Shown here: positions 26,545 to 45,147 of the stretch, piece after piece
How positions within the stretch are numbered: the first letter of the stretch is position 1
How the letters are laid out: each line of letters starts with the position of its first letter
NCBI RefSeq assembly: GCF_013426895.1
Contig: NZ_AP023174.1
Span: forward strand, 3,472,001-3,536,000
Direction: 5' to 3'
Length of the DNA stretch: 64,000 nt
Origin: Paraburkholderia largidicola
GTDB lineage: Bacteria > Pseudomonadota > Gammaproteobacteria > Burkholderiales > Burkholderiaceae
Program-made: the position numbers and the translations under genes
Notes under the pieces: generated by a model
Databases searched by the model: none
Seen by the model: only the letters and a program-made list of their open reading frames with translations
What the model was told of the DNA's origin: nothing

Positions 26545-27135
26545 TTGAACTCAAGCATAGCATGCAACCCCGGCGCGAAATCGAAAAAGGAACTGCGCGC
26601 AACGCTGCTGGAAGCACGTCTGCATGCGGCTCTCGATGCGGCGGGCAATGATGCGCTGAGGCGTCGGGTGCTGGATGTGTTATCGGTTTATTCGCCCGCA
26701 AGTGTAGGGTTGTACTGGCCTTTGTCAGGGGAGTTCGATATTCGATCTGTCATTGCCACGTGGCTCGATGGCGATAGTGCGCGGCGCGCGAGCCTTCCGG
26801 TGATTACTGGCCGGGATCGGCCGCTGGAGTTTCATGTCTGGTCGGCTGATATGCCCATGCGGGTCGGCGCGCATCGCATTCATGAGCCGACTTCCGGTGA
26901 CGTGATTACGCCTGATTTGCTGTTTGTGCCGTGTGTTGGGTTTGATGCCGATCGGTATCGGCTTGGATATGGCGGTGGGTACTACGATCGGACGCTCGCC
27001 GCGTTTCGCGAGGCGGGGAAAGTGCCTGTGACCGTCGGTGTCGCGTATGAGGTGTGCCGGGCTGGCACGCTGCAGCGTGAGGCGCACGATATTCCGCTCG
27101 ATGTTGTGGTTACTGAGGTTGCTTCCTATAGGTAA
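26545..27135 (+). CDS. 5-formyltetrahydrofolate cyclo-ligase
   Basis: The 196-residue enzyme converts 5-formyl-THF to 5,10-methenyl-THF with ATP. The N-terminal KSKKELRATLLEAR supplies basic nucleotide-binding residues, and LGYGGGYYDRTL is the hallmark motif. No in-frame ATG suits the N-terminus; TTG at 26545 is chosen because GGAG lies 7 bp upstream and the length is then normal. In some proteobacteria 6S RNA precedes this gene, but here the slt start leaves no room. Confidence 0.9.
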   Translation: MNSSIACNPGAKSKKELRATLLEARLHAALDAAGNDALRRRVLDVLSVYSPASVGLYWPLSGEFDIRSVIATWLDGDSARRASLPVITGRDRPLEFHVWSADMPMRVGAHRIHEPTSGDVITPDLLFVPCVGFDADRYRLGYGGGYYDRTLAAFREAGKVPVTVGVAYEVCRAGTLQREAHDIPLDVVVTEVASYR

Positions 27136-27167
27136 AGGTAGGGGTGGCTTGTAGGTTGTTGGTTTGC

Positions 27168-27213
27168 GTTTTCGCTGGCATCCGCGATTTGCCTTTTCGC
27201 TGGCATCCGCTAG
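27168..27213. repeat. Short tandem duplication at the left edge of the palindromic element
   Basis: TTTTCGCTGGCATCCGC occurs twice in a row about 24 bp apart. The same word, complemented, forms the right edge of the element near 27850. It looks like a duplicated end of the repeat. Confidence 0.6.
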
Positions 27214-27220
27214 ATGTTAT

Positions 27221-27890
27221 TGGTCTGCTAGCGTTGCCCCTGTGCGGGGCGGCACCTACTTTTCTTTGCCGCCGCAAAGAAAAGTAGGCAAAAGAAAGCG
27301 GCTCATACCGCCAGCCCGTGTTCCTATCCACGGGCCCCCAACGTCCCCACACGTCACACGGTAACGCATTGTTCGTTGCCCGTTGCCAACGCTTCGAACA
27401 ATCGCATCACCCGCGTCAGGCACCCGTACAACGGCAGACGGCAGCGAATGGTAGGTGCCTCCCAGGTGGCAAACTGTGTGTAGGTTGTCGCGGCGTATAG
27501 CCTGGCGCTCTTACAGGGTGGGGCGCGTGCGCTATCGGTCCGGAGTGAGGCGTGTGGAGCACTTGGGCCGACACACAGTTTGCCACCTGGGCGGCGGTGG
27601 ACTGTGTGGCGCGGCATGCTGTAACGCGGGAGGGTGAAGCGGGTGAGGCGCATCGAAAGAGCGCTGGCAACGAACGTGGGTCACGTGGTTGCCGTGTGAC
27701 GTGTAAGAACCTTTGGGGGCCCTCAGGCAAATACTAGAACTGGCGGTGTGAGCCGCTTTCTTTTGCCTACTTTTCTTTGCGGCGGCAAAGAAAAGTAGGT
27801 GCCGCCCCGCACAGGGGCGACGCTTGAAGCATGCTAACAAATCGCGGATGCCAGCGAAAAACACAAGCAGACCACCCAGCGTCGCAGACA
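27221..27890. repeat. 670-bp imperfectly palindromic intergenic element, copy A
   Basis: Perfect 70-nt inverted arms lie at 27236-27305 and 27749-27818. Each arm holds its own 15-bp-stem palindrome (CCTACTTTTCTTTGC ... GCAAAGAAAAGTAGG). A second perfect 20-nt inverted pair lies at 27461-27480 and 27572-27591 around a ~90-nt centre. The parts between are diverged but alignable inverted copies, so the element resembles a ~290-nt unit duplicated head to head. A near-identical copy of nearly equal length lies at 43086-43754. Open frames inside are spurious. The right edge runs into CCAAAC-type tandem repeats (27892-27923) and the 3' end of the MarR-like gene. Confidence 0.9.
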
Positions 27891-27923
27891 ACCAACCCCA
27901 AACCCAACCCCAAACCCAAACCC

Positions 27924-28436
27924 TTACAGAGATGCCGCCGCCCGCGCAGCGGTGTCATAAAGCCCGGAAGCATTCCGCATCAGTTGCGCCGCCTCCCCAA
28001 TCTGCTCATTAGTGAGCCCACTCTCCTTGAGCGTCGCGATCAGACAACTCTCCCTTACCTCACGGTACTTCAGACACAGATCACGCCCCGCCTGCGTAGC
28101 AGAAAAAAACACTTCCTTGCCGGTCTTTTCGCTTTTTACATACCCTCTAGCTACGAGCTTCTTGAGCGCATAAGTCGCGACATGCGTGTCCTCGATATTC
28201 AACACGAAACAGATATCGGCAATCTTCTTGCGACGCTCGCGGTGGCTCACATGATGCAGCAGCGACACTTCGATCGCCGTCATGTCCTTGTCGCCGGCGG
28301 CCGCCATGCACCGGACCATCCAACGGTTGAACGCGTTGCTCGCCATGATCAGTCCGTACTCGAGTTCGGATAACTCCGCACTAAATTCAGACACAAGATG
28401 TTCCGATGAGACGATTTTGGTCGGATGACGCGCCAT
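27924..28436 (-). CDS. MarR-like winged-helix transcriptional regulator
   Basis: This 170-residue protein has a central winged helix (TAIEVSLLHHVSHRERRKKIADI, then VATYALKKLVARGYV with basic wing residues) and helical ends for dimerisation. It belongs to the winged-helix/MarR-like group. It is divergent from pxpB across 191 bp that contain a palindrome, so it probably regulates the 5-oxoprolinase cluster and itself. Its C-terminal end abuts simple tandem repeats and the palindromic element. Confidence 0.85.
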   Translation of the reverse strand: MARHPTKIVSSEHLVSEFSAELSELEYGLIMASNAFNRWMVRCMAAAGDKDMTAIEVSLLHHVSHRERRKKIADICFVLNIEDTHVATYALKKLVARGYVKSEKTGKEVFFSATQAGRDLCLKYREVRESCLIATLKESGLTNEQIGEAAQLMRNASGLYDTAARAAASL

Positions 28437-41241: not shown

Positions 41242-42897
<1,656 letters not shown>

Positions 42898-43085
42898 GGC
42901 GTTCTCCGCGAGGCAGCTGGGGCGAGTGCCCTTGGATCATAGTCAGCCAATAATCGGATTCAATATGGGTTTTCACTCCACTTTTGCTTTTGCCTTTTCT
43001 GGTATTTGGGATTTGGGTTCGGGGCAGGGTGGGTTTGGTTTGGTCGTATTTGGTCGTGTTTGCGCTGGCATCCGCGTGATGTCTT

Positions 43086-43754
43086 TGGTCTGCTAGCGTT
43101 GCCCCTGTGCGGGGCGGCACCTACTTTTCTTTGCCGCCGCAAAGAAAAGTAGGCAAAAGAAAGCGGCTAACACCGCCAGCCCATATTCTTATCCACGGGC
43201 CCCCAACGTCCCCATCCTTCACACGACAGTGCCCTCGCCGGTGCTCGTTGCCAACGCTTCGAACAAGCGCATCACCCACTTCAGGCACCCATACAACGGC
43301 AGACGGCAGCAAATGGTATGCGCCGTCCAGGTGGCAAACTGTGTGTAGATTGTCGCGGCGTATAGCCTGGCGCTCTTACAGGGTGGGGCGCGTGCGCTAT
43401 CGGTCCGGAGTGAGGCGTGTGGAACACTTGGGCCGACACACAGTTTGCCACCTGGGCGGCGATGGACCGTGTGGCGCGGCATGCTGTAACGCGGGAGGGT
43501 GAAGCGGGTGAGGCGCATCGCAAGAGCGCTGGCAACGAACGTGGTCACGTGGTTGCCGTGTGAAGCGTAAGAACCTTTGGGGGCCCTCAGGCAAATACAA
43601 GAACTGGCGGTGTGAGCCGCTTTCTTTTGCCTACTTTTCTTTGCGGCGGCAAAGAAAAGTAGGTGCCGCCCCGCACAGGGGCGACGCCTGAAGCACGCTA
43701 ACAAATCGCGGATGCCAGCGAAAAACACAAGCAGACCACCCAGCGTCGCAGACA
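43086..43754. repeat. 669-bp imperfectly palindromic intergenic element, copy B
   Basis: It is the same element as 27221-27890 in the same orientation. The 68-nt outer inverted arms are at 43101-43168 and 43615-43682. The central ~140 nt differ from copy A at only a few positions, while the segments just inside the outer arms differ more. Its right edge again meets a simple tandem repeat and the 3' end of a leftward gene (metF). Open frames inside are not genes. Confidence 0.9.
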
Positions 43755-43788: not shown

Positions 43789-44619
43789 TCAGACGCCCAA
43801 CCGCTCGCAAATAGCCTTAGTAGCAGCCGACCCGTTAAGGGTATAAAAATGCAGCCCCGGCACCTTCGCCTCAACAAGCCGACGACAAAGATCCGCCACC
43901 ACATCGAGCCCAAACGCCCGAATCGACTCGCGGTCATCACCAAAACTTTCGAGCCGTCGCGCGACCCATCGCGGCACTTCAGCACCGCACATTTCGGAGA
44001 ACCGCATCAACTGCGAAAAGTTCGTGATAGGCATGATGCCCGGCACGATAGGCACATCAACACCAAGCTTGTGCGCATCGTCGACAAAACGGAAATACGC
44101 GTCAGCGTTAAAGAAGTACTGCGTGATCGCCGAATTGGCACCCGCCTTCACCTTGCGCGCGAAGTTCTCGAGATCATGCTTCGGTGAACGCGACTGCGGG
44201 TGATACTCGGGATATCCCGCCACTTCGATGCGGAACCAGTCGCCGAATTCGGCGCGAATAAAACTCACCAGTTCCGACGCGTAGCGCAACTCGCCGACTG
44301 CGCCCATGCCCGACGGCAAATCACCGCGCAACGCGACGATATGGCGGATGCCGTGCGAGCGATATTCGTTGAGAATCGCGCGCAGGCTTTCCCTCGACGA
44401 GCCAATGCACGACAGGTGCGGCGCGGCTTCGAGGCCGTCCTTCGCCATGTCGAGCACCGTGTCGAGCGTGCCTTGCTGGGTCGAACCGCCGGCGCCGAAC
44501 GTGACGGACACGAACTTGGGCTTGAGCGGCAACAGTTCTGCGCGCGTCGCACGCAGCTTGTCGAGCCCTTCCTGTGTCTTCGGCGGGAAGAATTCGAATG
44601 AAAGTTCGATGGGGTTCAT
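43789..44619 (-). CDS. metF: 5,10-methylenetetrahydrofolate reductase
   Basis: The 276-residue flavoprotein reduces methylene-THF to 5-methyl-THF, the methyl donor for methionine synthesis. The start MNPIELSFEFFPPKTQEG contains the conserved EFFPPK; VTFGAGGST, HIVALRGDLP and ITQYFFNADAYFRF are family motifs. It is last in the ahcY-holin-like-metF series, so the SAH riboswitch could control both ends of the methyl cycle. The 3' end touches a tandem repeat next to the palindromic element. Confidence 0.97.
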   Translation of the reverse strand: MNPIELSFEFFPPKTQEGLDKLRATRAELLPLKPKFVSVTFGAGGSTQQGTLDTVLDMAKDGLEAAPHLSCIGSSRESLRAILNEYRSHGIRHIVALRGDLPSGMGAVGELRYASELVSFIRAEFGDWFRIEVAGYPEYHPQSRSPKHDLENFARKVKAGANSAITQYFFNADAYFRFVDDAHKLGVDVPIVPGIMPITNFSQLMRFSEMCGAEVPRWVARRLESFGDDRESIRAFGLDVVADLCRRLVEAKVPGLHFYTLNGSAATKAICERLGV

Positions 44620-44636
44620 GGTTCTGTTGGCACCCG

Positions 44637-44990
44637 TCAGCTCAGGCCGCGGTTGCCGAAGATGAGCGCGGACAACAGCCACGAAACGATGCTGTACAGG
44701 ATCGAGCCGAAGAACGCCGACCAGAATCCCGACACTTCGAAGCCCTTCAGCAGCGACGCGCACAGCCAGAAGCACAGCGCATTCACCACCAGTATGAAGA
44801 GCCCAAGCGTGAGAATCGTGACGGGCAACGTCAGCAGGATCAGCACCGGCCGCAAGACGGCATTGATGAGCCCCAGCACGAGCGCGACGATCAGCGCAGT
44901 GCCGAAACTGCGAATGTGGATCGACGGCACGAGGTAGGTGATGATCAGCAGCGCGAGCGCATTGATCACCCAGGTCAGCAATACAGTCAT
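44637..44990 (-). CDS. Phage holin family / YvlD-like four-helix membrane protein
   Basis: This 117-residue protein has four hydrophobic helices, starting MTVLLTWVINALALLIITYLV and with LGLINAVLRPVLILLTLPVTI between helices, as in the PF04020 family. ATG 44990 has GGAG at good spacing. The holin name is historical; no lysis genes are near. It lies 17 bp before metF and is probably cotranscribed with ahcY and metF. Confidence 0.85.
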   Translation of the reverse strand: MTVLLTWVINALALLIITYLVPSIHIRSFGTALIVALVLGLINAVLRPVLILLTLPVTILTLGLFILVVNALCFWLCASLLKGFEVSGFWSAFFGSILYSIVSWLLSALIFGNRGLS

Positions 44991-45093
44991 GAACAGCTCC
45001 TGGTCGTCTGTGGTGTGAAGTCCGGATTGAACTCGAAGGCACGCGAAAAGCGTCAGCCGATGCAATGTCTCGCATGGGCCTGTGCTTCGTCCG

Positions 45094-45147
45094 GTGCAGC
45101 CGCCCGCCGAAGCAGGCGGCCGCACCTGTCATGCCGCTTTTTGCGGC
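45094..45147 (-). terminator. Two successive hairpins between ahcY and the holin-like gene
   Basis: One hairpin pairs GTGC-A-GCCGCC (45094-45104) with GGCGGC-C-GCAC (45115-45125). The other is GCCGC-AAAAA-GCGGC on the - strand (45133-45147), starting 12 bp after the ahcY stop. Neither has a T-run. They may attenuate or process the transcript before the small gene and metF. Confidence 0.45.

Follow-up and report, generated by a model that had tools for sequence, protein, structure and literature searches.

It has long been asked whether the palindromes dispersed in bacterial genomes are parasitic or functional, and whether they are spread and homogenised by gene conversion; Higgins and others reportedly asked in 1988 whether REP sequences evolve by gene conversion. 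The question is raised by a locus in the 64,000-nt stretch of the Paraburkholderia largidicola genome analysed here (the window), in which a large nested palindrome, copy A, makes up together with its tails the entire gap (27136-27923) between the stop codons of two convergent genes, a 5-formyltetrahydrofolate cyclo-ligase family gene (PF01812; 26353-27135, plus strand) on the left and a gene for a winged-helix (HTH_27/MarR_2) protein (27924-28436, minus strand) on the right. An earlier note, made from the letters of this DNA, had described 70-nt palindromic arms enclosing an inner inverted pair and a centre, and this architecture was confirmed. The outer arms are complementary without a mismatch over at most 70 nt (27236-27305 with 27749-27818), a stretch nested within a 121-nt pair (27194-27314/27740-27860) that is 90% complementary, and each arm contains a 34-nt palindrome (27255-27288 and 27766-27799) with 15-nt stems and a 4-nt loop. 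The inner pair is perfect over 21 nt (27461-27481/27571-27591) and flanks an 89-nt centre (27482-27570). Between outer and inner arms lie two variable interior halves, the right one (27592-27748) being a diverged inverted copy of the left (27306-27460), and the element as a whole is 70.8% identical to its own reverse complement, which agrees with the note's view of a unit duplicated head to head and since diverged. The extent originally given, 27221-27890, is occupied by the element but proved too short, as conserved tails run on towards the neighbouring stop codons: the left outer tail (27163-27235) carries two CGCTGGCATCCGC repeats (27163-27185 and 27188-27210), and the right outer tail (27819-27893) ends in CGTCGCAGAC (27880-27889), which is the motif that family members carry on the side of the stop codon. 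A second copy in the window, copy B (43059-43754), is 94% identical to copy A, with palindromes at 43120-43153 and 43630-43663, perfect 68-nt arms (43101-43168/43615-43682) and inner arms at 43326-43346/43436-43456; it is flanked by the 3' end of an MTHFR-domain ORF (43789-45132, minus strand) and by the start of an ORF for a solute-binding protein (41242-42897, minus strand). In the window there are 8 occurrences of the arm word AAAGAAAAGTAGG, in 100 shuffles none.

The two copies belong to a large family. The arm word is present 180 times in forward and 178 times in reverse orientation in the 9.47-Mb genome of this strain (5 contigs; referred to below as G000), and the inner arm 173 and 176 times on the two strands, the reversed control yielding no hit. 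As the listed arm pairs are mostly ~540 bp apart, the genome is estimated to hold about 180 two-armed copies, some of which are split by insertions, and at 180 x 690 bp the family would account for ~1.3% of the genome; this number disposes of the possibility, allowed for in the earlier note, that only two copies exist. A short variant with arms ~185 bp apart instead of ~400 was also observed (G000:C1:3539771-3540178), at a site common to three species (G000, G065 and G076). Within the genus the arm motif was found in 102 of 117 genomes at 1 to 494 occurrences each (control 0), corresponding to a range of 0 to about 250 pairs across the genus, and the element or its arms were matched in 29 of 35 genus genomes (this one included) as opposed to none of 24 genomes of other genera. 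Among plasmid records 21 matched at all (Paraburkholderia 10, Burkholderia 7, Caballeronia 4), and the six that matched over most of the element were all Paraburkholderia plasmids or chromids. The exact arm gave at least 80 matches in named genomes, the titles among those listed being exclusively Paraburkholderia and Burkholderia. None of the phage records searched holds the arm, and a phage origin was rejected on this ground.

Alignment of 70 copies from the own genome established which parts of the element are kept. The majority base is present in 99.7% (27236-27314) and 99.2% (27740-27818) of cases in the arms and in 97-98% in the inner arms, as compared to 83-85% in the interior and just 78.6% in the centre. 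The centre had been thought better conserved than its flanks, and between copies A and B it is indeed so (98.8%), but this impression arose because only these sister copies had been compared; across the family the centre is the least conserved part, and the function that its conservation had seemed to suggest is to be sought in the arms.

The position of the copies relative to genes is markedly biased. In 66 of 70 full-length copies the distance to a gene 3' end is at most 150 nt; 32 of the 70 lie in convergent gaps, 35 in tandem gaps, 2 in divergent gaps and 1 in a gap of undetermined type, as compared to 50 convergent and 50 divergent pairs among 382 adjacent gene pairs taken as background. 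Genes were called with a simple codon-usage caller at three thresholds, which give 32-34 convergent copies of 70 and a convergent excess with Fisher probabilities of 3.5e-9, 1.5e-9 and 1.9e-9; the strict setting misses the cyclo-ligase gene, and copy A is consequently counted there as tandem. No copy overlaps a called gene at the strict setting, while looser settings give 5 and 21 overlaps, which were taken as spurious since the frames of the interior are not conserved from copy to copy. Where the gap is tandem, the gene 3' end meets the right arm 27 times and the left arm 8 times (binomial 0.002). Outside the arms the copies carry a tail with CGCTGGCATCCGCG and further out, in many copies, GTCTGCGACGC; the end motif GTCTGCGACG, with small variants, was present at 39 of 85 gene ends, at a median of 13 nt past the stop codon. 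The tail is followed by a T- and G-rich spacer which starts at the stop codon of the neighbouring gene and was recognisable at all but 1 of the 85 gene ends. In 47 short spacers the gene-strand composition is A 3, C 14, G 35 and T 48%, as compared to 20, 30, 31 and 18% at control gene ends. Simple repeats, for example of GCTTTTT or TTTTGG units, with hardly any A on the gene strand, were noted to fill the space between stop codon and element (at L015, L065 and L104 among others).

A scan for hairpins followed by T-tracts detected terminator-like signals in copy A pointing inward at both ends and outward in both arms (5 sites, as compared to 1.3 +/- 1.3 in shuffles). The inward signal, T1, consists at the left end (27233-27268, plus strand) of the hairpin GTTGCCCCTGTGCGGGGCGGC (-13.4 kcal/mol) followed by ACCTACTTTTCTTTG, and at the right end (27786-27821, minus strand) of the hairpin GTCGCCCCTGTGCGGGGCGGC (-15.4 kcal/mol), again followed by ACCTACTTTTCTTTG. 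The outward signal, T2, was identified by the same scan in the left arm (27287-27312, minus strand) as the hairpin GGCGGTATGAGCCGCT with TTCTTTTGCC behind it, and in the right arm (27742-27767, plus strand) as GGCGGTGTGAGCCGCT (-8.5 kcal/mol) with TTCTTTTGCC behind it. After full-length filtering, which 62 of the 70 own-genome loci passed, and merging of duplicates, 88 copies from three genomes were available, and T1-like signals were present at 175 of their 176 ends and T2-like signals at 172 of 176 (letter-shuffled ends, 7 of 176), counts which are not independent because the copies are homogenised. Both elements of an intrinsic terminator, a GC hairpin and a T-rich tract behind it on the transcribed strand, are thus present, albeit not in textbook form, as the T-tract ACCTACTTTTCTTTG of T1 is interrupted and begins ~5 nt past the stem.

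The relationship of the arms to genomes outside the genus was followed through the palindrome TACTTTTCTTTG-N6-CAAAGAAAAGTA, which occurs in 13 of 369 genomes of the class (this one included), a shorter form being present in 3 of 369. In distant Gammaproteobacteria a hairpin stands just ahead of the T-tract on the outer side of 16 of 16 palindromes (10 genomes), with letters that differ between genomes; its score is >=13 in all 16 and >=15 in 15, a value reached by 8.9% of random 45-mers. On the inner side, where CTTTCTTTTGG or a similar word intervenes, a hairpin was present in 7 of 16, the two sides having been assigned by eye from the CTTTCTTTTGG-like word in these 10 genomes only. The outer hairpin is kept across distant genera while its letters change. 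Four of the distant loci (L133, L134, L136 and L137) have by eye the appearance of one-sided forms, with one palindrome arm and small hairpins behind a long hairpin.

Terminators were also sought between the gene ends and the element. None of the 47 short spacers contains a terminator of its own, where 2.4 would be expected from length-matched control windows, a deficit that is not significant (chance of none 0.08); a comparison with 75-nt control windows, 24 of 151 of which hold a terminator (Fisher 0.0015), overstates it, as the spacers are shorter (8-75 nt, median 49). In long spacers 14 of 37 gene ends have a terminator ahead of the element, which would therefore be redundant there, and these copies look as if they sit behind a native terminator.

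The explanation that we favour, with moderate confidence, is that the element is a dispersed intergenic repeat working as a two-way transcription terminator, its copies being old and fixed and their interiors overwritten by gene conversion. Each arm would then present two opposed signals which share one T/A-rich palindrome: T1, read inward, would comprise the gene-side GC hairpin with TACTTTTCTTT behind it, and T2, read outward, another hairpin, on the side of the interior, with TTTCTTTTGCC behind it, so that a transcript running out of the gene on either side would first reach the T1 of the nearer arm and, ~500 nt on, the T2 of the farther one. Recombination between copies fixed in place would overwrite the interiors, and such overwriting would render the set of each species alike and keep the two halves roughly complementary. 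Judging from sequence features, T1 and T2 probably terminate transcription in the cell, and the arms may be kept by selection for termination. The tail-to-tail placement would result also from selection against harm elsewhere, and the near-palindromic interior of 450 nt is more than a terminator needs.

The history of the copies was traced in a 464-kb block in which 11 sites of G000 (ten full copies and one short variant) are all occupied, and in unchanged order, in both G065 and G076, with inserts splitting two of the 11 counterparts in G076. The flanks of these sites are 90-96% identical (ten sites as compared to G065, eight as compared to G076), and independent insertion at the same places, the main other account of shared sites, is improbable. 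Copies at the same site are nevertheless no more alike than copies at different sites: orthologous and non-orthologous copies are 81.6 and 81.7% identical between G000 and G065, and 83.0 and 82.8% between G000 and G076, as compared to 83.5, 87.3 and 91.0% among the copies within G000, G065 and G076, respectively; this comparison excludes the short-variant site and the two copies that are split in G076. The copy closest to a given one comes from the same genome in 26 of 28 cases and is the ortholog in 0 of 28, and in a tree the G076 copies, and those of G065 apart from one, form groups of their own. Paralogs within a genome are therefore closer than same-site orthologs, and in the block tested there is complete concerted evolution at fixed sites. 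The orientation of the element is the same in G000 and G065 at 8 of 10 full sites, so that exchange mostly keeps register; at two of the ten sites (G000:C1:3280422 and 3515059 versus G065:C1:3177216 and 3401351) the interior was seen to be inverted relative to its flanks in G065. The pattern of orthologs and paralogs suggests that the homogenising process is gene conversion. At the site of copy A both arms are present in G000, G065, G076 and G066, and G019 has part of one arm followed by other sequence; 25 of 30 orthologous loci read, from among 58 genomes that have the gene, are empty (no arm match), all with less similar genes, and in these 25 relatives the two stop codons are 7-131 nt apart (median 58). 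The element at this site was most simply gained once, before G000, G065, G076, G066 and G019 split.

It may tentatively be proposed that some 180 transcription boundaries evolve here as one unit, their sites fixed, new versions swept through all copies by recombination, the terminator arms invariant and the long palindrome rebuilt after its letters have turned over. If true, this would be direct evidence, open to dating, for the gene-conversion model that was put forward for REP sequences, obtained in a family which is subject to selection for termination and is not purely selfish. The fixed sites, the long and numerous copies and the availability of three genomes in 3-5 contigs make conversion rates, tract lengths and direction measurable.

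The earlier note had also supposed that the element, once transcribed, forms one giant branched hairpin. Copy A does fold very stably as RNA (z = -24 and -20 on the two strands, 20 shuffles each), and the halves of the family's copies are far more complementary than chance (63-71% in eight genomes, shuffled 35.8%), but halves from one copy are no more complementary than halves combined across copies: 66.1 and 67.0% in G000 (12 copies sampled), 69.6 and 69.3% in G065 and 66.7 and 66.9% in G076, with small differences the other way in G003 (66.9 and 64.1%) and G030 (65.2 and 64.3%), each genome being represented by 2 to 12 copies. In G019 and G004 the cross-copy values were the higher, probably because the copies had not been turned to one orientation. 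As the interiors of the two main lineages (G000, G004, G019, G065 and G076 as compared to G003, G017 and G030) match at only 5-55%, it is to the family of each species that the complementarity of the halves belongs, which is what exchange among copies and also among halves would be expected to produce. Mismatches over the 88 copies comprise 1083 G-T and 994 A-C (47 copies with more G-T, 38 with more A-C). An element kept whole as an RNA hairpin should tolerate G-T more than A-C on the transcribed strand, and with the two kinds about equal neither strand appears to be selected as RNA over the interior. Cells in which both sides had changed numbered 541 in register and 184-305 when slid by 1-4 columns, an excess put down to the allele pool shared by both halves. 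A single giant hairpin kept by compensation was rejected on the copy-level and mismatch tests; the absence of compensatory changes, which the note had named as fatal to its proposal, applies to the interior at the level of the copy and does not extend to the small outer hairpin, which is rebuilt in all 16 distant palindromes.

For the same reasons it is very unlikely that a structured non-coding or small RNA is expressed from the element, as suggested by the Rfam family RF02421 (Bp1_684), which matches both outer arms. The stable fold and the in-register excess of double changes would accord with such an RNA; the near equality of G-T and A-C mismatches and the lack of copy-level compensation in G000, G065 and G076 speak against it, the Rfam scores (41.4 and 37.7 bits) fall below the gathering threshold of 44, and a search of 27100-27950 for a sigma-70-like site found none. 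On each arm Bp1_684 spans the outer portion, starting in the middle of the palindrome and running in the direction of the end motif, and it was modelled as a single 113-nt sRNA, whereas here the matching sequence is part of a repeat with hundreds of arms; the Bp1_684 number does not appear in the main text of two B. pseudomallei sRNA papers. That the element encodes a protein is next to inconceivable: the minus strand of copy A does have open frames of 104 and 119 codons, but the same frames are open in just 15 and 9 of 70 copies, and coding was rejected as the frames are not kept.

Insertion sequences found within copies are guests with ends of their own. An IS481-type element is located at the palindrome tip in two G000 copies (its domain was found in L059, the same ends in L003), with CGGCGG repeated on either side of the insert in L059; an insertion sequence of another kind is located at the tip in the G076 copy C1:3310940-3313088, and an element which we take to be IS30-like is present at the palindrome foot in two separate copies, L063 and L079. 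No target-site duplication was recognisable for the family itself at the one site compared by eye with empty relatives, in which the gene is at most 80% identical. The link to REP-associated tyrosine transposases (RAYT) proposed in the earlier note was not borne out: the two Y1-transposase-like ORFs of this genome lack the HUH residues, judged by what we take to be the HUH consensus, and the surrounding DNA read contains no copy of the element. The arm palindrome was found at 0 of 15 Y1-family loci of nine genomes, and at 10 of these loci AVQ occupies the position expected of HUH, the other 5 not fitting the motif used. The single Y1 match of G065, G066, G019, G486 and G020 is a 237-aa ORF with AVQ instead of the expected HUH, while G498 has two strong matches and G473 two with a stop inside. 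A REPIN mobilised by a RAYT was rejected, as no HUH RAYT gene flanked by the repeat was present at the 15 loci.

These observations bear on two further readings of the family. It is possible, though we regard it as rather doubtful, that the element is a selfish or formerly selfish mobile element of MITE/BIME-like nature, which was spread by a transposase in trans and survives behind genes because it is least harmful there, the terminator hairpins being a by-product of its ends. Its high copy number, its inverted ends and the variable arm counts across the genus accord with this, as does site A, which must have been gained, being empty in most orthologous loci; the arms, like REPs (PMC1525189), receive insertion sequences, and Silby et al. 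(PMC2718517) have read the position of P. fluorescens repeats as a "least worst" location. Against it, no gain or loss was observed at 11 sites in three species, no intact partner was found in a search limited to the Y1 family, and if the hairpin were purely a by-product, one would not expect to see it rebuilt with other letters in distant genera. We consider it very improbable that the element is a site of DNA-level architecture, namely a cruciform or a site bound by a protein of the nucleoid or of DNA topology, a role that some BIMEs have been proposed to play, even though palindrome tip and foot are repeatedly struck by insertion sequences, positive supercoils gather at convergent gene ends (PMC1525189) and the complementarity of the halves is kept despite near-complete sequence turnover, as the T-tract behind the hairpin exceeds what a cruciform needs.

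Among known systems the two-way terminator repeat proposed here is best read as BIME-like in habit. REP and BIME sequences are likewise intergenic, located downstream of genes mostly in convergent or co-directional gaps, often arranged as inverted pairs and targeted by insertion sequences (PMC3733652, PMC1525189), and the family shares with them its many dispersed intergenic palindromic copies, its inverted pairs (similar forward and reverse counts) and its place behind genes. Unlike REP/BIME, in which the unit measures 20-40 bp and is tagged GTAG or CGTC, the element is ~700 bp long with arms of ~84 nt around a 450-nt interior, showed no RAYT link at the loci read, and has sites common across species with a sequence homogenised within each; in this genus a GTAG does stand at the palindrome foot, and of the 9 distant loci L131 and L133-L140 just 1 retains it. 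The R0, R2 and other repeats of P. fluorescens resemble it in having inverted repeats around a variable core, a tail-repeat-tail bias and terminator-like hairpins, and differ in being shorter (50-352 bp, Table 3); the ends of R0 and R2 match resident insertion sequences, and the comparison of orthologs with paralogs made here has no counterpart in the parts of that paper covered (PMC2718517). BRE, compared by description only, is a short and mostly intergenic betaproteobacterial repeat, which at ~90 bp may stand in tandem and for which Table 2 contains no Burkholderia (PMC3110155). A published description of the family was found neither in titles and abstracts nor by a search of open-access texts with four short sequence words. 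The copies of rRNA operons are dispersed and homogenised within a genome by gene conversion (PMC8022953), as is proposed here for ~180 short non-coding copies, among which no ortholog signal is left in the block tested. The placement, the inverted pairing and the idea of termination are accordingly already known from the accounts of REP/BIME and the P. fluorescens repeats cited above, while the size of the element, the rebuilt hairpins and the complete concerted evolution at fixed sites are new.
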